This document shows positions 8,806 to 48,194 of a stretch of DNA of 64,000 nt, piece after piece. The stretch is from NCBI GenBank assembly GCA_002189035.1, contig NEEC01000011.1, positions 558,001 through 622,000 on the forward strand. The letters run 5' to 3'. Each line of letters starts with the position of its first letter. Within the stretch, counting starts at the first letter, position 1. The notes under the pieces are model-generated. The model saw only the letters and a list, made by a program, of their open reading frames with translations, had not been told where the DNA came from and did not search any database. A program made the translations under genes and the position numbers. This stretch comes from Utricularia gibba (Eukaryota > Streptophyta > Magnoliopsida > Lamiales > Lentibulariaceae).

Positions 8806-10905
8806 TGTTACCCTTTCCAAAACTAATCCATAAAAACAATGCTCCAAACTAGGGAACAACACATTGTGGTGCTACTAATAAATGATGAAAGAGCATCACA
8901 TTGACATTAACTATTGTGGAGTCATCAGCCAAAGCACTGCATATCGATATACTCTATGCAGTGGTCATTTGTTGCATTGGATCTTTAGATACTTGATAGC
9001 ACACAAATTTTCCTACTTTTATGATATGAAAATCACAAATTTTTAATTATGTTTAGTTGTTAATTTTATCGTCTTAAGTATTTTATATAATTAGGAAAAA
9101 TGTGATTTTTGGTGTATTAGTGAGCTAAATCCTTTGATTTAGCCCACCCCATATTCTAACCCAATTTTGAGTTCTGCAGCAATTCCAAAAATCCAGTGGA
9201 GGCAGCATGGATTTCATGCAAGTCACCGTGCAGCAGGGAGCAATAAGTACACTGTCGCGGCAGTAGTCTGCAAGTTAGGGCAGTAGCAGTAGAGTTGTCA
9301 GAGATTGTACTTGCCTTGGGAAGTGAGAAATGAGAGAATGATGAGGAGGAGAGAGAATCGCAAGAGGGAGGGCAGAAGTTTGCAGCACACATACGAGGGG
9401 TTTCTCCCCAACTCAAGCATGAAGAATACTGAACCAGAAGAAGGAGAAGTGCGATTTTTCTGGAGAAGAACCTCCAACGTGAAGGAAGAAGATCAAGACC
9501 CAGTTTAGCGCTACTATTCCGACCTGTGAACAGTAGCAGATGGAAACCAGAACTCTATTGCTTTACTTTTGTTTGTTGATGTTTTTAGTTTCTGCAACAA
9601 ACTCTTTCACGATGTTCTTCACATTTTCGCTGTTTTATACTAATGTTATCATATTTTACCTATCAAGTATGAGTAGCTGTTTTATACTAATGTTGGTGAT
9701 GATATTGGGGACTAGCTTAGCCAAAAATGTGATGAATGACCTAGTAGACTTAGGTTATTTGAAGTTGTGAGTGTATGAATATAGTAAATTAAATTAGACA
9801 TCTTATCACCACATTACTCTGAGTTAGAACTAGTACTTGTTACCTTTAGCGTTAAGACCTGATATTGTTTACTGATCTTGTTTACTGAACTTGTTTACCA
9901 CTATTGGTCTGAGCTTAGACTAAGACTCACTGTTTATTCCGAATTATGCATCAATTGAAATACTTAGCGAGTATAAGCTCCTTGTGATCGACCCCGAAAT
10001 CCACTATACAAGTTTTCTAAATTTGTATTTTATGTATATTAGGGATTATAAATTTATTTTATACGGAATTTCTATTTTTACAACAACATTAAGAAATTTC
10101 TGTTTATCAATACTCAATGCTTCTACAATAGTTATTTGAAGTAACAAAAAAGTTAGAATACTATAGTTACTGCAACATCCATGCAAATTAAATCAACATT
10201 GTCTATCAAGAAATAATCTTGTAGTGCTTCCACAATGGATACTCTTCGTTTATCGAATGTTGACCTACTCGTTAGTGATCGAAGAATGTGGAAACATCCA
10301 TCTGGTGAATGAGCACTTCCAAGAACGTCTTGATATCACCCCCTCGAACCATGGAAGAATCGTTGACTGAGGTGTACTTGTAGGTGTTTTGGAATATGAC
10401 ATTCTTGAGCTGTCCAATGAAAGTATACCATCATAAAATGAAATGTGTGATGGAGTGGCGCAAAAGATTGATGGGACACTCACTAGGTTGTGTAGTGACT
10501 TATACAGCACAGCATCGATGAGTAGTGTATTAGGGCGGTGGTATTTGCCCTTTAACTCTGTGTTGGCACATCTTTACATTAACAGTGTTGTTCCTACTGT
10601 GATGCATTGGATAACTAGTGTCATATTCATGGATCAATCTCATTGGAAGACAACCTTGCCAGCGGCTCCGGGTCCCAATAACCACTAGATCACATTTTGC
10701 AACTGTTCCCTAAAACATGTTATCCAAATAATGGAACACCGGCATTGTGCATCCCCACCGCATAATAATTGGATAGATGTACCATTCTATTGAAGACAAG
10801 ATAGTGACGACAAAGTGTTCGATGCAAAACTATATCAACTCTCATGCTCTTGATCGGAGACAACTACATATTAAACTAATATCAAACATGAGACAACTAC
10901 ATGGG
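8806..10905 (-). pseudogene. FCP1-phosphatase-like fragment, copy 1 (with solo LTR inside)
   Basis: Read on the minus strand and skipping the LTR at 8994-10109, this matches 43080-43940 closely. The shared coding part includes QHRVKGKYHRPNTLLID and YKSLHNL, which resemble the WDQS...NTLLIDDSPYKAL region of plant FCP1/NIF phosphatases (PF03031, HAD fold). These enzymes dephosphorylate protein substrates such as the RNA polymerase II tail. The N-terminal DLNG-type motif is not in this copy. Stops and frameshifts are frequent. Confidence in the duplication is high; the family call is tentative. Confidence 0.45.
8994..10109 (+). mobile_element. Solo LTR, TGATA family, TSD ATACT
   Basis: TGATAGCAC...GTTTATCA, 1116 bp, flanked by perfect 5-bp duplications ATACT at 8989-8993 and 10110-10114. 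No internal region, primer-binding site or second LTR is present. The undisturbed target can be read in the paralogous copy at 43759-43763 (agtat on the plus strand). ORFs inside (9156-9416, 9305-9508, 9540-9770) are incidental. Confidence 0.85.
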
Positions 10906-11850
10906 GATAGTGTTTAGGGTCGAACACGAAGAGCAAGTGCTTGTCATATGATTATCAATGCATGCAATCGGTGTCATGTTGATAGAATTGGTCGTCACTA
11001 GGACTAAGGCAAAATTACGATGGAATATAGTGAAGAAAAGTAACAAACTTTTGAACTCGATTGTTCTTGAGATGAAATGGGTGATGCCTTGGGACTCCTA
11101 AGGGATGTATGCTCATCACTAAAACATGCTCACACAAACCATAAATCAAATATTTAACAAACAAAGTCTAAGTCTACCCGAACTCTTGTTTTCCTCCTAA
11201 TCTTTGGTCTACTTCTAACTAGGGTTGTTAAGATAAGTTTCACTACTTCCCCCTCCTAGATCTATCTTGGTTTCTTAAGGAAGTGGCATGACTTATGGTT
11301 AATAAAGTCTAAAAATTGATTAGCACACTTCTTCTCTTTTCACCCCAAGGCACCTCTAAGTGCATAGCCACTTATGCTTAAGGTAAATAAAAAATGAAAA
11401 ATAAAACATCATCCACATTGTACTCATTTGATAGCCGATTACCAGAAATGAAACAAGCAAGGAATTAAAAAAGTTCAATAGAAAACTTGAACTATCGCTA
11501 GCTACTCTTAGCTGAGAGTAATATTCGTTGGAAACAAAAGATAGTCTTCATACATCAGCTTTGTTCCTTGTTCATCTTCCTCCTTCTTCCCCTAGAAGTC
11601 TTCCCCAGAAGAATGTGTCATGTGCCTCAATGGGGAAGATCTCCTTTTCTCTCTCCATCTTTTCTCATTTTGTGTCCAAAATCCTCCTTTTTCCTCTCCT
11701 TGTATTTTGTGTCCTTCTTTTTAACCTTTTGCCTCATCATCTGCCACTGTACTATTCATATCTGGCTCTTTGGGATTTGGTTTGTTGATATGTGTTGCAT
11801 TGCTCAAAGAAAATTACTAGAACTAAGGTTGGACAAAAAATATAAGAAAG
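10906..11850 (-). repeat. Truncated TGATA-family LTR
   Basis: Reverse-complement copy of the family. It contains agggtcgaacacgaagagc near 10919 and the long shared block gggtgatgccttgggactcc near 11080. Both ends are missing: one meets the FCP1-like copy, the other a MULE transposase remnant. ORFs at 11528-11870 are LTR sequence. Confidence 0.7.
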
Positions 11851-12920: not shown

Positions 12921-13593
12921 TTTATTTTCATGACAAATTATGTTTTTTTATAAAATTTAATTTAGTTTAAAATACTATTAAATAAATTACACAATTTCTT
13001 TATTGATATGATTTATAATGAAATCAAAATTATATATTTATATATATACATTTATATTTATAATTTTATTTTTATTATACAAAACATAATATCATATAAT
13101 ATGAATAAAAAGCATGAATTCAAAAAATGAATAAATAAAAAATAGCTAGTTTGATCACAATTCCAAAATTGTATTATCTAACTAATAGATTTTTTAAAAA
13201 GAGTTATTTTACTAAAAAGTTTCGGTAATGAATAATGATATATGTTTTTCGATTTTTTTAAAATATTTTTCTCTTTAAAAAACCAAAGTGAAAAATTAGT
13301 TATATTTTTAATATTTTATAATTCCTTTTACATTTAATTATCATATATTTAGTATAAAATAATAATTTTGACATAATTTATCAAGTTTACATAATAAAAT
13401 AAATAGAAAACAAAATTAATAGAAAACCCAGTAGATAAAATGGATATATAGGATCTTTATTTAATAGAAATTGAATAAAATAGAATAAAATAAAAATTAA
13501 TTTTTGGAAGATGGGTACCTTTTAACATAGTAACACATAATGGGTATTTTTCAAATAGCATTAAAATGTAGTGTGTAGAAAAGTAAAATACCC
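12921..13593 (-). repeat. AT-rich MULE arm, copy 1
   Basis: Matches 33031-33590 in inverted orientation and part of 36330-36548. Read on the minus strand it begins GGGTATTTTAC exactly where copia coding sequence stops, which suits a transposon terminus inserted in the copia element. Confidence 0.6.
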
Positions 13594-14560
13594 ATCTCAA
13601 TAACCACTTCACAGCTGCCTAATGAATCTCATTTGAGTTGTGTGTGTATCTACTCAGTCTATCTACTACATACACTATGTCAAGTCGGGTATGATTCATT
13701 AGATATATCACACTTCCCATTATATATGCATATTTACTTTGGGACATAAGGTCATCGCTATTTTTCTTTAAACTAATACTGGGTCATATGTAGTCGGAGT
13801 TGGTTTCACCTAATTGAAACCAAACTTCTTTAAAAGTTTCTTAATGTAATGGCTTTGAGTTAGTAGAAACCCTTCTTCATTTCTCACAATTTTGATGTCC
13901 AATATGTAGCTAGCTTGAGAAACCCTTCTTCATTTCTCACTATTTTGATGTCCAATATGTAGCTAGCTTCATTCATGCCCTTCATCTAAAAATTTAGAGG
14001 CTAAGAATTTCATGGTCTCTACAACTGTGCCTAGGTTCAGCCCAAAGATCAGCATATCATCCATGTAGAAGGTTATGATCACACATTGATTATTAAAAGT
14101 CTTAGAGTAAACAAATCTCTCGACTCGATTTGAAGTGAAGTCTAATGATGTTATGACTTCATCAAATTTCTCATGCCACTGTTTAGGTGCTTGTTTCAAG
14201 CCATATAGTGATCTCTTCAGTCGACACACTTTGTGTTCTTCTCCAGCCTTTACACAATACTCAAACTGAAACATGTAGATTTCTTCCTCCAATTCACCAT
14301 TCAGCAATGCCGTTTTGACACTCATTTGATGAACTGTCCAATTGTGCACATATGTCATTGCAAAGAGTACCCGTATGGCAGAAAAGTGAACCATTGAATT
14401 AAATGTCTCAAATTAGTCAACACCCGGTTTCTGAGTGAAACCCTTCACTACAAAGCAAGCCTTGTATTTGTCTACTTTATCATTTGCAAGGAGGTTTTTC
14501 TTAAAGATCCACTTGCTCTCAATTGGCTTTGCCCCAGGGGTAGGTCCACTAGTTCTCATT
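13594..14560 (-). pseudogene. Copia reverse transcriptase (A1)
   Basis: Copia RT (RVT_2). The longest open piece is 13969-14394 and contains SVKTALLNGELEEEIYMF, VCRLKRSLYGLKQAPKQW and the catalytic box TFYMDDMLIFG with both aspartates. Upstream, stops interrupt the WKLVDLP-like start of the domain. Downstream are a tandem duplication of a 53-bp coding segment (13859-13964), not divisible by three and therefore frameshifting, and an end at the MULE junction in the WLLR block of RNase H. Not functional. Confidence 0.85.
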
Positions 14561-15000
14561 CGTTGTTTTGATGGAGCGAATCCATCTCACTCTGAATGGC
14601 TTTCATCCACAATGGAGCATCTGGAGAAGTAATTGCATCGTAGTAGGTCAGAGGATCTCCACTAGTGAAATACACATAGAAGTCATCACCAATTCTAGAC
14701 TCTACTCTCTGCCTTTTGCTTCGTCTCAGAGGCACTTCCTCTAAGGGTTCACTAGTTTCAATAGGTTTAGTGGTAGGTGTCTCATGGCCACCATCTTGTC
14801 GTTTTCCTACTAGAGGAAAGATGTGCTCAAAGAATTCTGCATTCTTTGTTTCGAGTATTGTATGATGATCAAGGATATCACTCTTGATCACAAGAAATTG
14901 ATATGCAGCACTCTCCTATGCATATGCTATAAATAGACAATCAAATATTTTTGACCCAATCTTCCTTTTCTTCGAATCAGGTAACATCACTTTTGCTTAA
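14556..15000 (-). pseudogene. Copia integrase-RT linker (A1)
   Basis: Open frame 14556-14891 encodes the variable linker with the landmarks RRSKRQRVES and PLWMKAIQSEMDSL, the latter opening the RT domain of copia elements. The GKL-rich tail of integrase precedes it with stops. The same linker lies at 31790-32040 in the plus-strand relative. Confidence 0.75.
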
Positions 15001-15640
15001 CACCCCCACACCCTTAAATACGTAAGTATGTAGCCTTTCCATATCTAATACGGAATTTTGTATATTTTCTTATGTGGGATTCAATTCTGAACTTGCAAGT
15101 TGTGAGAATCACTTTCCCCACATTTTATCTAGAATGCAAGAAGTAATAAGCATTGATTTCATCATTTCCTTCAATGTCCTATTCTTCCTCTTGGAAACTC
15201 TTTTTGACTCATGAGAGTATGGAGGAGTTTTCTCATATATTATTCCATGCTTCTTACAGAAATCTTTGAATAATACATACTCACCCCTGTATCAAATCTG
15301 ACTCACTTTATTTTCTTGTCAAGTTGGTTTTCTGCCTCATATTTAAATAGCATAAATTTATCAAATGCTTCAGATTTACGTTTCAACAAATACACTCGAA
15401 TATATCTAGAGCAATCATCAATAAAAGTAATCATAAACTTATTGCCACCTCTAGATACACATATCTTATAATCACATACCTCCGAATGAATCAATACAAG
15501 CAATTCAAATTCTCTTATAGAAAAGCATAATTTCTTAGTCATTTTTGCCTCTACTTAAATCTCACACTTAGCAGGTAACTCATGCAATTTAGGAATTAAA
15601 TCTAATTGCTACATCTTTTTCATATAGGCATAGTTACTAT
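15001..15640 (-). pseudogene. Copia integrase (A1)
   Basis: Integrase would join element DNA to the genome. The pre-integrase end and catalytic N-part are readable: LLVLIHSEVCDYKICVSRGG, then FMITFIDDCSRYIRVYLLK. The remaining core (ENSNG- and KMMK-type blocks) is broken by stops, whereas the 31 kb relative keeps it open. The domain starts at the boundary with the inserted LTR block at 15641, so part of the zinc-binding N-terminus is missing. Confidence 0.75.
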
Positions 15641-22809: not shown

Positions 22810-23106
22810 AATCATCTGTATTCTGTGTTTCAACAAACATATTGTTCCATTTATTGGATAACAGGGAGTTTTGAAGTAGCCAAGTGCAATTCTCTTTTTT
22901 GTCTAAGCCTCGATTTTGGAATGCAACTCAAAATTTTATTTATTTATTTCTCGAGTCTGCTCTTCTAATGCGCAAGCAAGAGTGAGAAATGAGGAAAACC
23001 CTATAGAAATCTTAAAGGATTTCCTTTATTTATATGTGTAGATTCTTCCCTAAACCATTTCGCACGTGAGGGGTGATTTTTTTTTTTCAGTAATAAACTA
23101 GGGACT
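22810..23106. other. Unassigned interval
   Basis: No gene seen. The short frame at 22783-22968 straddles an LTR end and is not supported. Confidence 0.3.
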
Positions 23107-24276
23107 TGATAACACATATTTTTGAGTAGCTCAATGCATGGAATTTACTCATTTTATGCTACAAAAATTAAGCTTAATTGTCTATTTCTATATTTTTGCA
23201 CATAAGTACCGTAGGAGTGCACTTTTAGTCTTACTTGGGACTAAATCTACAATTTAGTCCAACAGTTCCTTTCAAGCAATGCAGCATGGGTCGCAACACA
23301 AATCCCAAGGAGCAGAGTATGAACAGTGTGGGGGTAGGAAAGGTGACAGAAGTCTGAAGAAGAGTACACACAAAGTCCAAGTAGGTGAAAAAGGAAGATT
23401 TTGGACAAAAAGGGAGGAAAGGTGGAGAGAGAAGTAGATCTCCCCTTGGAGACTCACGAACACATTTTTCTGGGGAGAAGGTTTTCTGGGGAGGAACAAG
23501 AAGGAAGACAAACAGGAACGAAGCTGAAGTTCAAGATTATTTGCTGTCTTCAAAAAATATTACTCCTAGCTAAGAGTAGCTAGTGACGTTTTTCAGTTTT
23601 TGTTGACACTTCACATTACTTGCTTGTTTGCTTTCTGGTATTTGATTGTGAAATAAGCACACTGTGGGTGATGTTTTCTTTTCCACTTTCGTTTACCTTG
23701 AGCATGAGTGGCTAAATACTTAGGGGGGTGCCTTGGGGTAAAAAGGGGAGAAACATGTTAATCAACCTTTAGATCTAAACACCCATAAGTCACGCCACTT
23801 CCTTAACAAACCAGGATAGATCTAGGAGGGGGAAGTAGTGAAACCCAACTTAACAACCCTAATTAGAGGTAGACCAAAGATTAGGGGGAAAAACAAAAAT
23901 CCGGGTAGACCTAGATCTTGTGAGTTAGTTGTATGATTTGTGGTTTGTGTGAGTTTGTTTAGTGATGAGCATACATCCCCTAGGAGTCTCAAGGCATCAC
24001 CCATTCCATTCCAGAAACAACCGAACTCTAGAACTTATTACTTTTCTTTACTGTATTTTGTTTTAGTTCTGCTTTAGTCCTAGTTAAGACCAATTTTACC
24101 AACGTGACATTGATTCCTTGCATTGACCTTCACATAGCAAGCACCTAGCTCCTTGTGTTCGACCCTAGTCCACTATGCTCATAATTGTTTTATGCTTGAA
24201 TGTGTATTAGGTTATAAATTTATTTGATAGAAGAAATTTGCAATTTAACGACATTGCGTAATTTTTCCGTTTATCA
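23107..24276 (+). mobile_element. Solo LTR, TGATA family, TSD GGACT/AGACT
   Basis: TGATAACAC...CCGTTTATCA, 1170 bp. Flanks are ggact (23102-23106) and agact (24277-24281), a 5-bp duplication with one difference. Highly similar to the copy at 47038-48194. Internal ORFs on both strands are LTR sequence. Confidence 0.8.
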
Positions 24277-26420
24277 AGACTCTAGATTCTCAGATGAATT
24301 GAATGATACGGTTCAATCTCTTCTTTCAATTGAAGGCAGAGGGTTGGCTCTGTTCAATCTCTTCTTTCAATTTAAAAGATCAAATTGACCCAACGAGCGG
24401 AATGGAAATGAAGCGAGTTAAAGAACAGAGCTCCCATTTGGAGCGAGTTTGCAGGAGTTGATTTGCAGTAGGTTTCCATGCGGGAGTTATTTCTTTATCT
24501 AATTCTAGGGAGCACGGCTCCCATTTGAATTATCTTAGCCCCAGTCCATGTTATTCCAGTTTCTTGGAAAGTTTGACCAATTGTCAATTCTTGATTTCAA
24601 AAATTGGATCGGTTTGATCTATAGTCACATGCAGATTATCTTCATGTCCAGTACCATTCGCTGCACAAGTCAATCTCCATTCATTTATTCTGCCAATTCG
24701 GAGAGGCAATTATTTAAGATGCTGTCTTTTTTTTACTAACACATTTTTCAGTAGGTTATATATTCACTTATGCTGGCTTCTTGCTTGCCTCCATCGGGAA
24801 AATTTGGCTAGGTTTGATGATGGTCAAGGTTTTGTTGTAAATAAACATATGAGTCAAAAAATGTGGATATAGTCGAATGGTAAAATTTCTCTTTGTCAAG
24901 TAGAAGAAAAGATTTTTCGTAAAGCCATTATCCAAGAGAATACTTGTAGTTATTGACTTGAAAAGGGAAAATGTTGTATAATTGTTTTATTTTCTGCAAT
25001 TTTCTCAATCTCACTATGTAAATTACCCAATATTGTATAAAGTTGGGCATCACATGCATGCATGAAGGGTTCTAATTTATTATATTGGGTTTGGAGGCTT
25101 CGAAACCCAAAAGACTACACACACAAGAAAGTGCAAAACTGACCCTAAAAGCCTCTTGCGTGCGTGTGTCCATTTGGATTAGACATATATATAATCGATT
25201 GGTTCCTAAAATCGAGATAGTGTTCTGGAAGAATCTTTTGAATTTTGAAAGATCAAAAAATTCTTTAGTATAACATACTATGTGCTTGAGGTTTTGTTCG
25301 TTTCTTGTTTTTGTATCAAAAAATTCCTGAAAACTTTAGGTCAGATCCATTTTTGGATCACATTAGCCCCAAGACGTAGGTACTGAACTAGATTCAGAAT
25401 ACACTCACTTGGTGACTTCTTACTTCTCAAGGCCGCTGATCAAGCTATTTACATAAGCAAAAAAAATGGAAAGGTATAAAGTCATTAAAAGCTGTAACCT
25501 CTCTATAGTACTCTAATTCTTCGGAAGATATAATTGGGGGACATGTATGATTAGGTACTTAACGGCCAATATCTGGTTATTGCCGCTAGAAAAGGTTTAT
25601 TGACACAAATCGAATTTCTACTATGAACTCTAAAGTCGCTCCTTGCTTTATCTTTTTTTCATTTTAGATTTCTGATAAGCTAAATACACTGCACTCTTCG
25701 GCTAATTGACTCTACCCATTAACATCTGTTGCACATCCTTACACCTCTCAACTCGAAACCCTTTCCTATCTAGTGTCAGCTGATAGGAATTGAAAAAGCT
25801 AATTGACTCTGAGTTTTGAACAAGCTACTGCAACATCCATTTCATTAGGAATTGATAATCTTTTAACAATACCCTCGAAGAGATAGCAGCTTGAGTAGTA
25901 AAGTCTTGATTTCCAGAGGCTTCTAGGCTCGCTTTTGTTACTCATTGATGATACACTTTTTTTTTGGAATTGATCGATAGATTTCTCGAAACAATCTCCA
26001 ACTCATCGGATGTCACCTAATGCTAACAATTGTAGAATTCTAAAGTGTAGCAGCCCTTGAAATGAGTGCATAACTCTTTATTAATTTAAGACATTTGGGA
26101 GTTCTTTGGACTCCTTCCAAGACTGATAGGTGCCATTCTTAATTTACTAAATTATACTAATTTATAAATTATTATTCAACCATTTCATTTTTTCAAGTTC
26201 AATCAGAACAACATAAGACAACGCAAGGAAAAAAGATCAATGATTTTTAGATAAGTCGGTAAGATGATTTAAAAACTGATCATACCATGATGATAGTATC
26301 ATCTAGACAAAAGTAAATTGCCTCTTAATCGTAAATAAAATTTTTCAACTTTATTTAAATTAAATTGACCATTTTTTCCTATGAGGTCAACAGAAGACCC
26401 GAGACCATTATTTCTTGTGG
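24277..26420. other. Unassigned interval with a copia-LTR-like patch
   Basis: No gene recognised. About 25080-25300 weakly resembles the LTR at 36832-37275 (cgaaacccaaaag, the agcctctt block, the gaatc...aagatc block). A tandem near-duplication of ggttcaatctcttctttcaa lies near 24310-24370. The rest is featureless to me. Confidence 0.3.
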
Positions 26421-26430
26421 CAAATAATTA

Positions 26431-26680
26431 CATATTTGACCTAAAAATCAAGAGTTTGAGCATAACGAGCCCAGAAATTTTCATAAGGGGGCATAATGGA
26501 CCCATGCAATTTCATGAATGACATATTTGACCCATAAATTTTGTTAATTGGCATATGTAACCCATGAATTTTTTTTACCGTAGAAGACACTCATCTTACA
26601 ACAACAGATTTGGTCCATAAAAGTTTTGATTTTGATATATTTGACCCAAATTGTTTACTAGTTTGGCATTTGACCCACAC
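26431..26680 (-). repeat. Left array of the 30-bp motif
   Basis: The core catatttgaccc recurs at 26431, 26461, 26492, 26522, 26552, about 26606, 26636 and 26666, mostly 30 bases apart, with degenerate members. On the minus strand each unit reads gggtcaaatatg followed by AT-rich sequence such as atgaatttt. Confidence 0.75.
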
Positions 26681-27298
26681 AGTTGAATCTGCTTTAATAA
26701 TAATAATAATTTAATAATATATAATTAACTATTAAAATATTTAAAATTCTGTTTTTTTTTAAATTTGACCCTAAATCGAATTGGGGATGGCACTTCCTTT
26801 CCTGTCGCAGGTGAAGGCGAACTATGAAGAGCTCGAGAGAAGTGATTCCTGAACAACCGGAAAGGTGTGAAGATTGGACATATTTTCTTTTTTTTTCTGG
26901 TCCTCTATACACGGAATAGAAAAATGTGGAAAAAGATTATAAAAGAGCAGTTGTTCTAGATCATCATTCTTTGAAGGTATGGTTTTCATGATTTTTTCGC
27001 TTCACTGCATTATTGCATTTATTTCTTGTTTGCCTGATTGCTATTGTTGAACTTTTGTGCAAAAAGATTTGCACCCAGACAATCCACATCCCATTTTAAC
27101 TCATTGTACTGATAGGTGTCTCAACAATTTAAGCTTTCTATCTTGAATGAATGAATAGTATGGGTGGCTACTAATATTGTTCAAATGAAGCATCATTTGC
27201 TCTCTACGTTACTGAGACTTTACCTGCGACTACGTGTTGGCTACATTCAAGAATACAAATCCTCAGATAACTAGTAATAAGCTACAACCTTAATGCAG

Positions 27299-27610
27299 GT
27301 ATCAGTGCAGCACCACTGCCGTTTCTGTTGGTAAGTATGATAATAAACAAATCCCTATGTTGGTTGCTTTGCTTCAGATGACTAACTTGGCATGCATGTT
27401 ATGCAGTGGCTCCTACTTGCTATGCTCACTTTGGTGGCAGCGCAGCTGGGTCAGTGGATTAAGTTTGAGCAAAACTTGGAAACATCCTTTAGACAAGGTT
27501 GTGGTCCCAGCAGTACAACTTCGGCTCTGGCTGTCCCTTCGATGCCTCCACTTAAGAAAAAAGTTAGAAACTTGTTCTTTTACTCACCAGGACTGACCCA
27601 TCATACATAG
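27299..27610 (+). pseudogene. AGO4-clade Argonaute, last two exons (fragment)
   Basis: An exon of 32 bases (27299-27330) reads YQCSTTAVSV. An intron (27331-27406, gtaagt...tgcag) follows, and then an exon with VAPTCYAH, AAQLGQWIKFEQNLETSF, ALAVPSMPPLKKKVRNL and FFYS. This is the end of the PIWI domain of plant AGO4/AGO6/AGO9-type proteins (family form STTAISV, VAPICYAHLAAAQ, ending in MFFC). Those proteins bind 24-nt siRNAs and guide RNA-directed DNA methylation. One extra T after CYAH shifts the frame, and the normal end FFC-stop has become FFYS with read-through to TAG at 27608. The intron shows a DNA-level copy. Upstream exons are not recognisable. Confidence 0.75.
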
Positions 27611-27804
27611 CCTATCTTTTTGGAGATAAATATGATTAATACCTGGTTTTTCAACCCTCTCACTTCTTTTCTGCTTGGATTCACCTACACTAGGATAAGG
27701 GTAGTTATTTTTGCTTAGATAGTTATCTAAGGCAAATTGATGCAGAAGCTAGGGCCACCAAGTGAAGCCTAACTTGTTCGTTCCTATCATACTTTATGCT
27801 TTAT

Positions 27805-28013
27805 GGGTTAACTATACCAATTAAAGTTCTATGAATTTTCTTTGGGTCAAATACGCCTCGTTATGAAATTTTATAGGTCAAAAGTGTAAAAAATAAATTT
27901 TTTATGGGTTAAATATATCATGTACATAATTTTTTGTAGGTCAAATGTGTTATTTCATTAAAATTTTGGGTCATATAAGCCAAACCGGTATCAGTTCTAG
28001 TCAAATATATCGA
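27805..28013 (+). repeat. Right array of the 30-bp motif
   Basis: Units start at 27805, 27844, 27875, 27906, 27938, 27968 and 27999, with forms such as gggtcaaatacgcc and gggtcatataagcc. Spacing is 30-32 bases except for one of 39. Inverted relative to the left array. Confidence 0.75.
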
Positions 28014-28016
28014 AAG

Positions 28017-29082
28017 TCCTTGTGGTACTTTCCACTACCCTAGAAACTTGAATAAGAAATCAATCAACTAAGCTCATATCCTTGCCTAAAAGAATGAGCA
28101 ATTCCAATGCAATTCACATAGCCTCTTTCTATCAAGAAAAAATGAGTGAAGCTCCCAATGTGCCTATGACAGCACTCGGGTAAGGCTATCACTTCATTAG
28201 CTCAGGTTGTTTCAAGTGTCTTCTTGGATAGTCATAGCGGCCCAATCAGAACTCCAATGAGAATGTGTTGTGTCATTGAAAAATGATCTTGTCCAGGCTT
28301 GAAAACCCTTTTGTTGCTCTTAGATATGATCAGTTCAATAAGAGATCATGCTTTTTAGAAAAGTGTTTTTTTGTTGAATCATCATTTCATATGATTTCTT
28401 ATGAAATAAAAAAGACGGAAGTAGAACTTGTTTTACTTGCTTATCATAAGCAATATTTTTATTTGCACTCTAATTTTTTTCATTTATCAAACTTGCGTTG
28501 CACCAAATGTCCTACGGAATATGAGAATTTCCACCTTGTTGAAGATCTTCACAAATATTATACTTGGCTTTCTAGTGCCTCCTGTCTGTCCCTTTCCTCC
28601 TCTATACGTCTAACTTCACAAGCACAAATTCCACTTTTGATAGGTCCAAAAATTCATTAATAAAAAAACAACCCCTTTTCGGTTTATTGGTTTTGAGATG
28701 TGTAAATTAATTCCTTATATTCGCCAAATGGGACCTGCAACAATGATGGAGCACTCTAAGTAATCGCCCATATGTCATTGTCTTTCGTGTATTGGATTAC
28801 ATATCCGAAAGTTATCGCAACTCCATCAAAGGAACTAAGTGCCACTTGATGAGTAACCAAGAACAAAGGAGAGGGATATGGAACCTCGGAAATGTTCTTT
28901 TCATGTCTTATCTTCTGAACGGCAATGATTTTGCAATTCATTGAGCCTCAAACCAACCTGAAATAGTACTTTAAAAGATTGGTTAATTGTTGAGCATGAG
29001 GAAGAAATCTTTTCAAACCTCTTGCAATAGTATGAGGTTTCGTGGACTTGATTAGTGTGAAATTTCTTTTCAAGAGCCATCG
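28017..29082. other. Unassigned interval
   Basis: Contains a 125-codon plus-strand frame (28283-28660) and smaller minus-strand frames, none with motifs I recognise. No promoter, splice pattern or family similarity was seen. Confidence 0.3.
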
Positions 29083-31044: not shown

Positions 31045-31580
31045 TGGTGAGTAGAAAATCTGAATTGTTTGCATTGATTCATTCGAAAGTATGTGATTAT
31101 AAGATATGTGTATCTAGAGGTGGCAATAAGTTTATGATTACTTTTGTTGATGATTGCTCTAGATATACTCAAGTGAATTTGTTGAAACATAAATCCGAGC
31201 ATTTGATAAATTTATGTTATTTAAAGCTGAGGCAGAAAACCAACTTGAAAAGAAAATAAAAAGACTCAGATCTGATAAAGGGTGTGAGTATGTATTATTC
31301 AAAGACTTGTGTGAGAAGTATGGAATGATACATGAGAAGACTCCTCCCTACTTTCCTGAGTCAAATGGAGTTGCTAAGAGGGAGAATAGGACACTGAAGG
31401 AAATGATGAAATTATTGCTTATTATTTCTTGCATTCTAGATGAAATGTGGGGGGAAGCGATTCTCACAACTTGTCACGTTCAGAATCGAATCCCACGTAA
31501 GAAAATAGACAAAATTCCGTATGAGATATGGAAAGGCTACACACCAAACCTTAAGTATTTAAGGGTGTGGGGGTGTTAAG
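31045..31580 (+). pseudogene. Copia integrase (A2)
   Basis: The catalytic core is well preserved: SKVCDYKICVSRGGNKFMI, TFVDDCSRYTQV (first Asp), RLRSDKGCEYVLFKDLC (second Asp) and PYFPESNGVAKRENRTLKEM (Glu). It continues to KIDKIPYEIWKGYTPNLKYL and ends with YLRVWGC. One frameshift lies near 31200, between two overlapping open pieces (31044-31259 and 31214-31579). The D, D and E positions are all intact. The zinc-binding N-terminus is missing because the copy starts at the junction at 31045. Confidence 0.85.
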
Positions 31581-31789
31581 CAAAAGTGATGTTACCTGAT
31601 TCGAAGAAAAGGAAGATTGGGTCAAAAAAATTTGATTGTCTATTTATAGGATATGTATAGGGGAGTGCTACATATCAATTTCTTGTGATCAAGAGTCATG
31701 TCCTTGATCAGCATAGAATACTAGAAATAAAAAATGTAGAATTCTTTGAGCACATCTTTCCTCTAGTAGGAAAATGACAATATGGTGGT

Positions 31790-32590
31790 GATGAGACACC
31801 TACCAATGAACCTGCTGAAACTAGTGGATCCTTGGATGAAGTGCCTTTGAGACGAAGCAAAAGGCATAGGGTAGAGTCTAGCATCGGCGATGACTTCTAT
31901 GTGTATTTCACCAATGGAGATCCTCTGACCTACTATGCTGCAATTACTTCTCTAGATGCTCTATTGTGGATGAAGGCCATTCAAAGTGAGATGGATTTGC
32001 TCCATCAAAACAAGTTATGGAAACTAGTGGACCTAACCCTGGGGCAAAGCCAATTAGGAGCAAGTGGATTTTTAAGAAAAAGATCCTTGCAAATGGTAAA
32101 GTAGAAAAATACAAGATTCGCTTTGTAGCGAAGAGTTTCACTTAGAAACAAAGTGTTGACTACTTTGAGACATTTGCCTCAATGGTTCACTTCTTTGCCA
32201 TACGAGTACTCTTTGCAATGACATCTGTGCACAATTGGACAGTTCACCAATTTCAAAACGGCATTCTTGTATGGTGAATTGGAGGAAGAAATCTACATGT
32301 TTCAGCTTGATTGTTGTATAAAAGCTAGAGATGAACACAAAGTGTGTCGACTGAAGAGGTCACTATATGGCTTGAAACAAGCACCTAAACAATGGCATGA
32401 GAAATTTGATGAAGTCATAACATCATTAGACTTCACATCAAATCCAATCGAGAGATGTGTTTACTCTAAGACTTTTAATGATCAATGTGTGATCATAACT
32501 CTCTACGTTAATGATTTGGTGATCTTTGGGATGAACCAAGGCACAGTGCTAGAGGCCATGAAATTCTTAACCTCTAAATTTTAGATGAAG
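31790..32590 (+). pseudogene. Copia linker and reverse transcriptase (A2)
   Basis: Linker landmarks (VPLRRSKRHRVESSIG; LLWMKAIQSEMDLLHQNK) lead into RT: TFKTAFLYGELEEEIYMF-type sequence in shifted frames, VCRLKRSLYGLKQAPKQW, SKTFNDQCVII, then LYVNDLVIFG. The catalytic YVDD box reads YVND (codon AAT for GAT), a loss of an essential aspartate that A1 retains. Frameshifts occur near 32040 and 32250. The C-terminal part is disturbed by the 53-bp tandem repeats at 32606. Confidence 0.85.
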
Positions 32591-32605
32591 GACATGGGTG
32601 AATCG

Positions 32606-32760
32606 AGCTACATATTGGGCATCAAAATTATGAGAAATAAAGAAAGGTTTCTCAAGTTAGCTACATATTGGGCATCAAAATTGTGAGAAATGAAGAAGGG
32701 TTTCTCAAGCTAGCTACATATTGGGTATTAAAATTGTGAGAAATGAAGAAGGGTTTCTAC
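32606..32760 (+). repeat. 53-bp tandem repeat in copia RT, three units
   Basis: Units start at 32606, 32659 and 32712 (agctacatattggg...). Each would encode SYILGIKIMRN-type sequence. A1 has two units of the same repeat at 13859-13964. The period is not a multiple of three, so each extra unit shifts the frame. Confidence 0.85.
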
Positions 32761-33030
32761 TGACTCAAAGTCATTACACTATGAAATTCTTACAGAAGTT
32801 TGGTTTAAATGAGGAGAAACCAACTCGGACTCCATATGATCCTAGTATTAACTTAAAGAAAAATAGCGATGACCCTATGTCCCAAAGCGAATTTGCATAA
32901 ATAATGGGAAGTGTGATATATCTAATGAATCATACCCGACTTGACATAGCGTATGCAGTAGATAGACTGTGTAGATACATACACAACCCAAATGAGATTC
33001 ATTGGGCAGCTGTGAGATAGTTATTGAGAT

Positions 33031-33590
33031 GGGTTCTTTAATTTTTCTACCCACTGCATTTTATTGCTATTTTAAAAATATCCACTGTGTTATTATGTTA
33101 AAAAAATACTCATCTTCCAAAAATTAATTTTATTTTATTCTATTTTATTCCATTTCTATTAAATAAAGATCCGACATATCCATTTTATTTGATTCTCGAC
33201 ATGGGTTTTAATTTTGTTTTCTATTTATTTTATTATGTAAATTTGATAAATTATGTCAAAATTATTATTTTATGCTAAATATATGATAATTAAATGTAAA
33301 AGGAATTATAAAACATAAAAAATATAACTAATTTTTCACTTTGGTTTTTTATTTATTCATTTGTTGAATTCATGCTTTTTATTCATATTATATGATATTA
33401 TGTTTTGTATAGTAAAAAAAGGTATTTTATTCATAAAAAATGTAAATACAAATATAAATGTATATATATAAATATATAATTTTTATTTCATTATAAATCA
33501 TATCAATAAACACATTGTGTACTTTATTTAATAGTATTTAAAACTAAATTGAATTTTATAAAAAAACATAATTTGTAATGCGAAAATAAA
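33031..33590 (+). repeat. AT-rich MULE arm, copy 2
   Basis: Inverted relative of 12921-13593, also partly repeated at 36330-36548 (tattatacaaaac...atgaataaaaa blocks). No coding potential. Confidence 0.6.
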
Positions 33591-33594
33591 TTGA

Positions 33595-33960
33595 ACCCAT
33601 GCCACCCCTCTCGGCGCGCTTCCCTCGCAGCGTGCCACTCTGCCATGGCAGGCATCTGCATCGTGGGTGTGGCCGGGCCTTGCGGGCATAATGTGCAAGT
33701 CGCGACTAGCGCACACTAGGGATGTACTATTCAAATGAACATAAATGATTTTAATCGAGTAGAACACAATTCGAATATGATTTGTTCGTTCATGATAACA
33801 TCATTAGCGCAGGCTTCCTGGCACTTGGTGCGTGCCAGCCCGCACATGGCACGAGCATCTTGTGCGAGGCGCTGCCCGCACACGCTACCCTGACGCCGCT
33901 CCCTTGCAGGGTGTGCGCCTATGTGGGTGCCAGCCCTTGACCATCCTGCTCAACTGAATT
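33595..33960 (+). repeat. GC-rich block, copy 2
   Basis: Inverted match of 12700-12920, including ccatggcaggcat, gcaagtcgcgactagcgcac and cgctcccttgcagggtgtgc. Interrupted by a 90-bp MITE at 33717-33806. Confidence 0.6.
33717..33806. mobile_element. 90-bp hAT-like MITE
   Basis: Ends TAGGGATG...CATCATTA form a short imperfect inverted repeat. Flanks gcgcacac (33709-33716) and gcgcaggc (33807-33814) each differ by one base from gcgcacgc, the uninterrupted sequence in the other GC-rich copy (12847-12854, reverse complement). An 8-bp target duplication is typical of hAT elements. Confidence 0.6.
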
Positions 33961-33962
33961 AT

Positions 33963-34645
33963 TTGATTATCATGTGATGTATTTGCCACTTGTATCTACA
34001 GTTTACTATGGTTGGCCTTCATAATTGTTTATATAATTTAAGTAAAATCGATGACCACTTAACAAATGAAGACATAAAAATTAAAATTAATACATTTGCA
34101 TAAGTTGATTGTATATATAATCAATATATATGTAACTAAATATAATTTATGATGAAATAGATTTTAACATCATATTTTCTATAAATATATTTAAAGATAT
34201 AATAATAACTTTTTGTTATTTAGTAATAAATTTGTATTATATTGAAATAAATCTATTTAAATGATTTTTTTGATTATCATGTGATGTGTTTGCCACTTCA
34301 CGTAATAAATGAATTATGGTTGGCCTTCGTAATTGTTTATATAATTTAAGTAAAATTTATGACAAATTAACCAATGATTACATACAAATTAAAATTAATA
34401 CATTTGCAAAGTTGATTGTATATATAATCAATATATATGTAACTAAATATAATTTCTGATGAAATAGATTTTAACAACATATTTCTTATAAATATATTTA
34501 AAGATATAATAATAACACTTTATCATTTAGTAATAAATTTATTTTATATCGAAATAAATTTATTTAAATGAATTGTTTGATTATCATGTGACGTGTTTGC
34601 CACTTACATCTTCACGTTATTATGGTTGGCCTCCATAATTATTTA
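33963..34645 (+). repeat. 307-bp tandem repeat, 2.2 units
   Basis: ttgattatcatgtgatgt begins units at 33963, 34270 and 34577, exactly 307 bases apart. The third stops after about 70 bases at the transposase side. The unit is the terminal repeat of the MULE, in inverted form at 36085-36330. Confidence 0.8.
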
Positions 34646-34649
34646 TTGC

Positions 34650-35992
34650 ACATTAGACATGTTGGCTTATCCAATGTAATCTAAGTACCAATATGCTGTA
34701 AAAACCAATGCCAAGATTCATCTGTCTCCTCATCTACAAAAGCAAAGGCAAGAGGAAACCACTTCCAAAGTGGTGTAAGTGTCACTGCAATTAGTCATTT
34801 ATGCTTGTAAGAAGAATACAAATATGTTGCATCGACGGAGTTAACAGAGAGTGTATGTTGGTATGCACGTATACATGGTCCAAATGCCCAAAATACATAA
34901 TGCAATGTTTCATCATCTTGCCAATGTTTGTAGTCAATAACTATTTCTTGATTTGGAAGCATTACTTCCTGCAAAAAAGTAGAGAGTTTTGGAACTGACT
35001 CTGCCTAAGTACCATAGAGCAATTGAAATGCTTTTTGTCTTCCAAACCAAGCTCAGTGGTATGGTATAGTATAACCGGTTTCCTGCAATTATTGTATGCT
35101 TTTTTATTTTAGTAATTATTGTAGATACTTTGGTCCCAATATCAAATTGAATATATGGCTTGGCCTTTTCTGCAATATACGTTACATTGATGTTATTGTG
35201 ATTAAAAAACCATCCTCCAAGGCGCCAACAAGTATGAGGCTCAATCAGTTTATTCACCTTCCATCTGTTAATTTTTTTGTAATGTACTACATGAATTCTC
35301 CATCTGCACTGTTGTCCTCCAAACATGGGGCAATGAAGATCTAGAACTCTTGGCTCACTATTATGCACAATATATTCCTTGCCCATTTTGATCATGTGAT
35401 TTCGCATAGCATTATGAAAGTCTTCCTTGGGTTCAATAATATTTTCATCATTTGTATCATTTTCATCATTAGACTCATTTGTTTCAGGTGGGAGTTCTGC
35501 TCCTGGAACTTGGTGCTCATTGTCATAATCCCAATAAGCATCACCATTATCATAATCTGCATATTCTTCTAATATATGAATTTTGAATTAGATTCATAAT
35601 ACATATCATACATTAAAATTAAAATATATCATAAAATGCTAAAATTAATAAAATTAATTATGTAATATACCTTTTTTACTTTCCCTTGAAGCTATTGGAA
35701 TATCATTATCTTCAACATTAATATAATTACTTGGAAAATTGTTAAAATAAGTTGAGGGATTTCCTAAATAGGAGGGAGTGACAGATTTGCTGGAACTAAC
35801 ATACAAATCCACAGGCAAAGTAATATGATTTGGATGAAAAATATAGTATTGAGCAGATAGATTAAGTGTGTATTCGTTGGAGTTGATTCCACAAAATGCA
35901 AACAATTGATTGATGGCATCCTGCATTTCAATATTTATATCAAAATCTGCAAATCCTACCTGTGGTATATCATAAGTTGTAAAGTCTCCTTA
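34650..35992 (-). pseudogene. MULE transposase gene with intron
   Basis: Exon 1 (35992-35671) reads GDFTTYDIP, FADFDINIEMQDAINQLF and INVEDNDIPIASRESKK. Intron 35670-35569 (102 bp, GT...AG). Exon 2 continues in frame with EEYADYDNGDAYWDYDNEH, the MuDR DNA-binding domain (CRWRIHVVHYK...EPHTCW; PF03108-like) and ITKIKKHTIIAGNRLYY. A frameshift near 35040 follows, then the first catalytic block FGPCIRAYQHTLSVNSVDAT and DESWHWFLQHIG. MULE transposases cut and rejoin element ends through a DDE catalytic core. The rest of the core and the zinc finger are missing: the gene stops at the terminal repeat near 34650. The true start resembles that at 12102. Confidence 0.75.
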
Positions 35993-46734: not shown

Positions 46735-47037
46735 AATGGTTATATCAGTTTTAACTTCATGCTGCTTTTCACCAGAATAAATAAAATGTCTAGGCCCAAA
46801 TGGATTCTCTTTTAATTTTTACAAGTGCATGTGGGATTTAGTTAGCAATGAGGTTATGGATTGGGTTAAGAGCCTTGAAGAATTGGGAAAATTAGGGATG
46901 GGGACAAATGCCTTCTTCATAAGTCTTGGTTCGAGAAAAACGGAATCCCCAAGTCTTGGTGGGTTCATTATACAAGATTATAACGAAATTGTTGAAAAAC
47001 CATCCAAATGGGGTGATGAGACCTAATAGATGTAACC
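46735..47037 (+). pseudogene. LINE reverse transcriptase, N-terminal part
   Basis: CLGPNGFSFNFYKCMWDLV (family APGPDGFSFxFYKxxWxxV), then NAFFISLG with a frameshift where family members read FISLVPK, then text matching the IGSIYKIISK block in another frame. RT would copy LINE RNA at the nick. Cut at 47037 by the solo LTR; RT text resumes at 48200 with MLNSALVANEI (family ILDxxLIANE). Confidence 0.75.
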
Positions 47038-48194
47038 TGATAACACATATTTTTAAGTGGCTCAATGCATGGAATTTACTTATTTTATGCTACAAAAATT
47101 AAGCTTAATTGCCCGTTTCTATATTTTTGCACATAAGTACCGTAGGAGTGCACTTTTAGTCTTAGTTGGGACTAAATCTGCGATTTAGTCCCAACCTTCT
47201 AACAGTTCCTTTCGAGCAATGCAGTATGGGTTGCAACACAAATCCCAAGGAGCCGTGTATGAACAGTGTGGTGGCAGAAGTCTGAAAAAGAGTACACACA
47301 AAGTCCAAGGAGGTGAAAAATGGAGATTTTGGGCACAAAGGGAGGAAAGGTGGAGAGAGAAGCAGATCTCCCCTTGGAGACTCACGAACACAATTTCTGG
47401 GAAGGTTTTATGGGGAGGAAGAAGAAGGAAGACAAACAGGAACGAAGCTGAAGTTCAAGATTATTTTTTGTCTTCGAAAAACATTACTCCTAGCTAAGAG
47501 TAGCTAGTGACGTTTTTCAGTTTTTGTTGACACTTCACATTACTTGCTTGTTTGCTTTCTGGTATTTGACTGTGAAATGAGCACACTGTGGGTGATGTTT
47601 TCTTTTCCACTTTCATTTATCTTAAGCATGAGTGGCTAAGTACTTAGGGGGGTGCCTTGGGGTAAAAAGGGGAGAAACATGTTAATCAACCTTTAGATCT
47701 AAACAGCCATGAGTCATGCCACTTCCTTAAAAAACCAGGATAGATCCAGGAGGGGGAAGTAGTGAAACCCAACTTAACAACCCTAATTAGAGGTAGACTA
47801 AAGATTAGGGGGAAAAACAAGAATCCGGGTAGACCTAGATCTTGTGAGTTAGTTGTATGATTTGTGGTTTGTGTGAGTTTGTTTAGTAATGAGAATACAT
47901 CCCTTAGGAGTCCCAAGGCATCACCATTCCATTCCAAAAACAACCGAACTCTAGAACTTGTTATTTTTATTTACTGTATTTCGTTTTAGTTCTGCCTTAG
48001 TCCTAACTAAGACCAATTTTACCAACGTAACACTAGTTTCGTGCGTCAACTTTCACATAGCAAGCACCTGCTCTTCGTGTTCGACCCTAATCACTATGCT
48101 CATAATTGTTTTATGCTTGAATGTGGGTTAGGTTATAAATTCAATTGATAGGAAAATTTGCAATTAACGACATTGCGTAATTTTTCGTTTATCA
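47038..48194 (+). mobile_element. Solo LTR, TGATA family, TSD TAACC
   Basis: TGATAACAC...TCGTTTATCA, 1157 bp, with perfect 5-bp duplications taacc at 47033-47037 and 48195-48199. Inserted in the RT of the LINE. Very similar to the copy at 23107-24276. Confidence 0.9.

Follow-up and report, generated by a model that had tools for sequence, protein, structure and literature searches.

Inverted Arrays of 30 bp Units Flank an Argonaute Fragment

The window (the whole 64 kb stretch of DNA that was analyzed) contains, at positions 26421–28016, a nonautonomous Mutator-like element (MULE) with foldback-type ends made of ~30 bp units and with the 3′ end of an AGO4-clade Argonaute (AGO) gene inside it. 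An initial annotation had described an AGO-like piece between opposed arrays of a 30–31 bp motif, with an imperfect 9 bp duplication (ttcttgtgg/tccttgtgg) outside the arrays. Each part of this arrangement was found again at or very near its annotated position, and the two copies of the duplication, at 26412–26420 and 28017–28025, are identical at 8 of 9 bases.

The left terminal arm (26421–26700, + strand) consists of degenerate 30–31 bp units and carries the family end (GAG)ATAATTACATATWTGACC, and the right terminal arm (27797–28016, − strand) has the opposite orientation. When up to one mismatch was allowed, the core TATTTGACC was found five times on the + strand (the last at 26762) and never on the − strand of 26421–27299, and five times on the − strand and never on the + strand of 27611–28016; the whole 64 kb window holds 14 occurrences on the + strand and 11 on the − strand. 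The units are well decayed, with 68%–74% identity to the reference copy of the longest repeat family, and Tandem Repeats Finder scored a ~30 bp array only at 26492–26571. The two arms (26421–26700 and 27796–28016) pair at −103.9 kcal/mol, compared with a mean of −65.0 kcal/mol (SD 5.7, best −77.7) for 100 shuffled pairs. The element therefore has the long inverted ends of tandem subrepeats that define the foldback type. No RNA family reached the Rfam gathering threshold in 26000–28500.

These ends are also the terminal inverted repeats of a MULE, although the right end of the window copy is shortened: its arm lacks nearly 70 bp of the family's right end (66–68 bp in comparisons with three family copies). 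The shortened arm adjoins the sequence that resembles a duplication, which would fit the use of an inner unit as the end. Either this copy last moved by way of an end that was already shortened, or the missing part was lost afterward.

Between the arms, an element-native stretch that matches family members, including members that lack AGO sequence (26701–27191), is followed by the left copy of a 10 bp duplication, ATCATTTGCT (27192–27201), the AGO fragment (27202–27718), and the right copy of the 10 bp duplication (27719–27728). A second element-native stretch (27729–27796) leads to the right arm, and in transposase-bearing relatives this stretch runs on toward the transposase gene.

The Fragment Is the 3′ End of an AGO4-like Gene Located Elsewhere

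The AGO4-clade identity proposed for the piece held up: window 27202–27718 (+ strand) is collinear, introns included, with the 3′ end of an AGO gene at C2:4191670–4192190, with 82.9% identity over 526 alignment columns (82.1% in the genome search). In parent coordinates, the captured stretch is bounded by the start of the penultimate intron and a point ~130 bp beyond the stop codon, and so comprises intron, exon, intron, last exon, and 3′ flank. The first exon equivalent (exon A, 27299–27330, + strand) encodes YQCSTTAVSV; the acceptor before it is conserved, as are the donor and acceptor of the intron that separates it from the last exon. The last-exon equivalent (exon B, 27407–27586, + strand) contains a +1 frameshift and has lost the stop codon. 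A functional AGO4 has N, PAZ, MID, and PIWI domains and a catalytic triad; the fragment holds only the last two exons, and these are frameshifted. When a 71-residue peptide read by hand from the fragment was compared with the sequences in the PDB, nothing relevant was returned (four chance hits).

A search of the genome with the AGO piece identified a single place that is set in an AGO gene, C2:4191670–4192190. Within the 5.5 kb around this match, only the matching stretch resembles the element, and PIWI exons lie directly upstream. The element thus carries a host gene fragment whose parent can be identified: the AGO4-like gene with the upstream exons lies elsewhere, which speaks against the exons in the window being the remainder of a longer gene at that position. 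The parent gene is contained within C2:4189185–4202600; its exons, spliced by eye, encode 887 residues, including what we take to be the catalytic triad, recognized by eye. The protein is 57%–70% identical to the 120 homologs listed, many of which carry the name Argonaute 4; those that have names come from flowering plants. AGO4-type Argonautes are part of the plant transposon-silencing machinery (RNA-directed DNA methylation). It is unusual that the parent protein is evenly distant from each of the 120 listed homologs; judged from its sequence, it may be a copy that has evolved rapidly, or the plant may be distant from those that have been sequenced.

The Element Belongs to a Dispersed Family with Target-Site Duplications

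When we searched 100 Mb of the same genome for further copies with the 30 bp arrays, a family emerged. Left-arm matches, defined as matches that start within the first 51 query bases, are present at at least 24 places, the window included, and the whole element gave at least 67 matches (the best 40 of 45 candidates having been scored). Two of the left-arm places, on C414 and C415, have identical 30 bp flanks and may represent a single locus that was assembled twice. Most of the 19 left ends that were compared read (GAG)ATAATTACATATWTGACC or a near variant. Right ends in the family read ...GGTCACAAATGCCAACACCCC or similar; right-end motifs were not found in the stretches examined for C510, C409:484k, C375, C255:705k, and C451:3725k.

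MULEs produce target-site duplications (TSDs) of about 9–11 bp. Six copies have both ends, and four of these are flanked by exact TSDs of 9–10 bp: C321:64k (2,619 bp; 10 bp, TTTTCTACAC), C1:3322133–3328982 (6,850 bp; 10/10, CTGAAAATTC), C409:179k (1,452 bp; 10 bp, GTAATCGAGG), and C142 (9 bp, TTTCAAAAC). The fifth is the window copy, with 8 of 9 bases (the chance of at least 8/9 within 11 offsets is 0.0032 in the window), and the sixth, C4:1961k, lacks a matching TSD. A length of 9 nt is typical of MULE TSDs (PMC4486113). The boundaries of the window element are confirmed independently by the other family copies; the boundary that the initial annotation had placed at the 9 bp duplications holds within a dispersed family in which four copies have exact duplications of 9–10 bp.

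Common Breakpoints and an Element-free Related Site

AGO sequence was found at 11 element places in the genome searched. Nine of these contain exon sequence (the window, C321:64k, C510, C142, C409:484k, C375, C255:705k, C4:1961k, and C451:3725k), and two (C1 and C2:3293k) contain the AGO tail only; C321:27k, with only ~18 bp of AGO tail, was left out of the count. Both arms were seen in 5 of the 11 copies (the window, C321:64k, C142, C4, and C1), and all or part of the left arm in five more (C510, C409, C375, C255:705k, and C451). No arms were seen in the stretch examined around C2:3293k.

Four copies (the window, C321, C510, and C409) have a common left breakpoint at parent position 10411–10414, and seven (the window, C321, C510, C142, C4, C1, and C2:3293k) have a common right breakpoint at 10931–10939; in C375, C255:705k, and C451, neither breakpoint is kept in the alignment. 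The copies also have in common a 3 bp insertion and 1 bp deletions relative to the parent. Because the breakpoints coincide wherever they are preserved, the AGO sequence was likely captured once and then amplified.

A search for an empty site, which the initial annotation had suggested, succeeded for the left flank and the junction. On the window's own contig (C255), ~74 kb downstream of the element, related sequence (86% and 91%) follows the left flank. The stretch at C255:657789–658232 is collinear with the left flank of the window element and ends in CTTGTGGTACTTTCC, which consists of the last seven bases of the TSD and the first eight bases of the right flank and is uninterrupted at C255:658218–658232. 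Without mismatch, this 15-mer stands at just two places in the genome, C255:658218–658232 and the window itself, and the joined flanks of the window element align across the junction at the related site. With up to two mismatches, the junction pattern was found 87 and 73 times, versus 167 and 165 times for the reversed control; as it is no commoner than the control, it is the exact match at the collinear position that argues for an empty site. The right-flank side of the search fell short: the flanks of the window element recur at C255:657571–663159, and the place that the element occupies in the window is taken there by 4.7 kb of other sequence, after which the right flank begins again, so the related site has its own later history. 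For the left flank and the junction, at least, the sequence at C255 represents a related site without the element.

Preservation of the intron and of the exon order might suggest that the AGO exons are the relic of a gene that decayed in place and that the inverted arrays around them are unrelated repeats. Decay in place, however, is expected to leave different breakpoints at different loci, and we found the same breakpoints and the same flanking element sequence at several places, as well as the related element-free site and the family TSDs. We therefore reject an in-place AGO gene as extremely unlikely. The proposal that a nonautonomous element carries part of a silencing factor is borne out by the location of the parent elsewhere, the dispersed family, the TSDs, and the element-free related site.

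Transposase-Bearing Relatives Define a MULE Family

A genome-wide search with the Pfam MULE model gave at least 150 matches (the best 150 of 239 candidates having been scored). One member with the same ends, C1:3322133–3328982, encodes a MuDR/MULE transposase: the open stretches between its arms contain the domains DBD_Tnp_Mut (PF03108, E = 8e-9) and MULE (PF10551, E = 3e-10), both above the cut-off. Seven of the at least 24 left-arm places, C1 included, match the 210-residue open reading frame (ORF) of C1 that bears the DNA-binding domain, on the same strand and within 5 kb downstream; at C451:5399k the match extends over only 26 residues. When four transposase pieces were compared with 26421–28016, no match was found. 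The window copy thus contains no transposase and is nonautonomous, and the domains in C1 identify the family as a MULE family.

AGO sequence and transposase occur together in C1, C375, and C2:3293k, which indicates that capture is not confined to nonautonomous copies. An AGO match is absent from five arm-bearing places with transposase (C413:1948k, C413:2775k, C2:2156k, C317:1799k, and C451:5399k).

The AGO Fragment Interrupts Element-Native Sequence at a 10 bp Duplication

At C3:2123270–2123481, the element-native sequence is continuous and lacks the AGO insert. This is the only 1 of 12 matches that spans the insertion site, and no arms were seen in the stretch examined there. Positions 122–131 of the C3 stretch, a single copy of ATCATTTGCT, recur to the left and to the right of the AGO insert in the window, C510, and C321. 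In C510 the two copies are identical (10/10), and the right copy has decayed to 6/10 relative to the left in the window and to 8/10 in C321. The duplication in C510 is the sole 10/10 repeat at a spacing of 540 bp (within 3 bp) among 4,441 starts in that stretch, and no such repeat was found among 63,400 starts in the window. At the left junction, the insert has a 3 bp overlap, GCT, with the parent.

On sequence evidence, the uninterrupted C3 relative and the flanking 10 bp duplication point to filler repair of a staggered break, and a staggered cut such as the family itself makes would leave 10 bp duplicated. With a probability of roughly 0.87, we interpret the window element as a transposase-less MULE with foldback-type ends, into an ancestor of which the AGO4-clade 3′ end was likely copied once, as filler during repair of such a break. 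A staggered break would have arisen inside the ancestral element, perhaps by the exit of a nested MULE that had inserted there with a 10 bp duplication, and the gap would have been filled by copying from the AGO locus, with the GCT overlap at the left junction. The chimera would then have been spread by a transposase of the kind encoded in the C1 relative, and internal deletions would have given rise to copies such as that in the window. The family ends, TSDs, element-free related site, parent with upstream exons, common breakpoints, uninterrupted relative, and 10 bp duplication are observed directly, and from them we infer the single capture, the copying of the AGO locus during repair, the spread by a C1-type transposase, and the internal deletions.

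The fragment could instead have entered by template switching at a replication fork or as part of an AGO-bearing element that inserted and then lost its ends, with C3 as a secondary deletion between the 10 bp repeats. A direct repeat of 10 bp, the family's usual TSD length, is expected around a nested insertion, and a later deletion between the two repeats could have yielded the structure of C3, which has too little sequence in common with the other copies to be ordered in a tree. However, in the window, C510, and C321 the 10 bp repeats and the AGO sequence have no terminal repeats left between them, neither at the left nor at the right, and an overlap with the parent like that at the left junction is often seen in repair. 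We consider these other routes of entry possible but doubtful.

The Captured Fragment Looks Noncoding

For five pairs of copies, exon and noncoding identities were 84.6% and 89.3%, 81.7% and 83.3%, 80.3% and 81.1%, 81.5% and 81.8%, and 92.0% and 89.7%; the two values are close in four of the five pairs, and in the remaining pair (window and C321) the exons have diverged more than the noncoding parts (84.6% versus 89.3%). No clear coding constraint was detected by dN/dS in 21 pairs of copies: values ranged from 0.37 to 1.23 over 31–68 codons, with 18 of the 21 pairs at 0.5–1.2. Comparison of the parent with the copies gave dN/dS of 0.29–0.64, and values below 1 in such comparisons can reflect constraint on the parent alone.

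It is very unlikely that the fragment encodes part of a chimeric protein. The parent–copy dN/dS values, the last exon of C510 and C142, which is open and ends in the stop codon (59 of 59 codons without an internal stop), and the acceptors and donor kept in the window, C321, and C510 would be consistent with such a role. On the other side stand the dN/dS values between copies, the similar identities of exons and noncoding parts, the condition of the other nine copies, which are frameshifted, contain stops, are cut, or lack the exon, and the loss of the donor and the last acceptor from C142. As the exons are about as diverged as the noncoding parts and 9 of the 11 copies are broken or cut, the fragment looks noncoding, and we predict that it is passenger DNA without a protein product.

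We also considered whether the fragment could act as RNA. The inverted arms would, according to the pairing model, allow a hairpin or read-through double-stranded RNA to form, and transcription across them might generate small RNAs that lower expression of the parent AGO and so help the transposon. In addition to the strong pairing of the arms, this idea can draw on exact runs of identity to the parent of 23 nt in the window, 31 nt in C321, 25 nt in C510 (in the coding exon), and 23 nt in C409. No other copy has a run that reaches 21 nt, the longest in the remaining 7 of the 11 copies being 13–17 nt. Moreover, the run in the window spans the end of an exon and the intron and that in C409 is intronic, so neither would match the spliced mRNA over its full length. 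The copies differ from the parent by 17%–23%, and the exons show no clear constraint. An action of this kind is quite unlikely. A broader version, in which the MULE lineage has kept the AGO4 piece through many rounds of transposition and dampens the host AGO4 with small RNAs made from it, as an anti-silencing device at the RNA level, is quite unlikely as well; if true, it would mean that RNA-directed DNA methylation had been turned against its own Argonaute. Silencing of donor genes by elements with captured sequence has been described in maize (PMC13317346).

Relationship to Known Elements

Jiang et al. reportedly described Pack-MULEs in 2004 (cited in PMC1808428). The window element works like a Pack-MULE with foldback-type ends and, by the features we tested, is one: like the Pack-MULEs of rice and maize, it has MULE ends, the family's 9–10 bp TSDs, a host gene fragment, no transposase in the copy, and a parent elsewhere (PMC4858842, PMC8903248). 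It differs from those elements in its AGO4-clade cargo, its arms of tandem units, and its transposase-bearing relatives that keep parts of the cargo. The initial annotation had called tandem-array terminal repeats with an Argonaute fragment unusual. The Argonaute cargo is indeed unusual, but tandem-array ends are of a known type: in FARE and other foldback MULEs of Arabidopsis, the inverted ends are long and repeated, and the family includes a MULE-type transposase (PMC4486113, PMC3169594). The likeness is one of structure and transposase type, and the passages in which those elements are described mention no captured Argonaute piece (PMC4486113, PMC3169594).

Among animal Pack-TIRs, Ssk-FB4 is similar in that a foldback element, FB4, contains captured host sequence, and gap filling with short overlaps or template switching has been proposed for the origin of Pack-TIRs (PMC8277862). 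Those elements are animal; in the present case, the insert lies between two copies of a 10 bp stretch of element sequence. Among MULEs, VANDAL and KIU contain additional genes or domains captured from the host, with a bearing on host silencing (PMC13317346, PMC10398659); according to the same sources they act through proteins, whereas the present cargo looks noncoding.

Nothing in the literature searched, in which subscription journals are thinly covered, reports an Argonaute fragment inside a MULE, which does not prove absence; the word “argonaute” appears in the main text of neither PMC13317346 nor PMC8903248. What is new here is the AGO4-clade cargo and the number of capture stages preserved in one genome. 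Most of the stages are present together: the parent, the uninterrupted relative, the insert flanked by 10 bp repeats, the amplified copies, the transposase-bearing relatives, and the element-free target. Their presence in one genome makes the repair model for Pack-MULEs testable at the level of single bases, and because the cargo comes from a transposon-silencing pathway, feedback between fragment and parent can be asked about where its effect matters most to the element.

Surroundings of the Element in the Window

The AGO-bearing element is enclosed by a 2.3 kb inverted repeat (87% identity) with arms at 13276–15515 and 31053–33351. Both arms hold copies of a 53 bp tandem repeat (13865–13969 and 32606–32758), and the inverted repeat could represent either a further large element or a duplication. 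A decayed piece of a MULE transposase of another type (37% identity to part of the C1 transposase) lies at 34642–34839 on the − strand, adjoining a 307 bp tandem repeat at 33955–34646. The window also contains a 1.18 kb direct duplication (23104–24276 and 47035–48194, 91% identity), and related pieces are present near 10.9–11.8 kb, 20.7–21.2 kb, and 40.4–41.1 kb.
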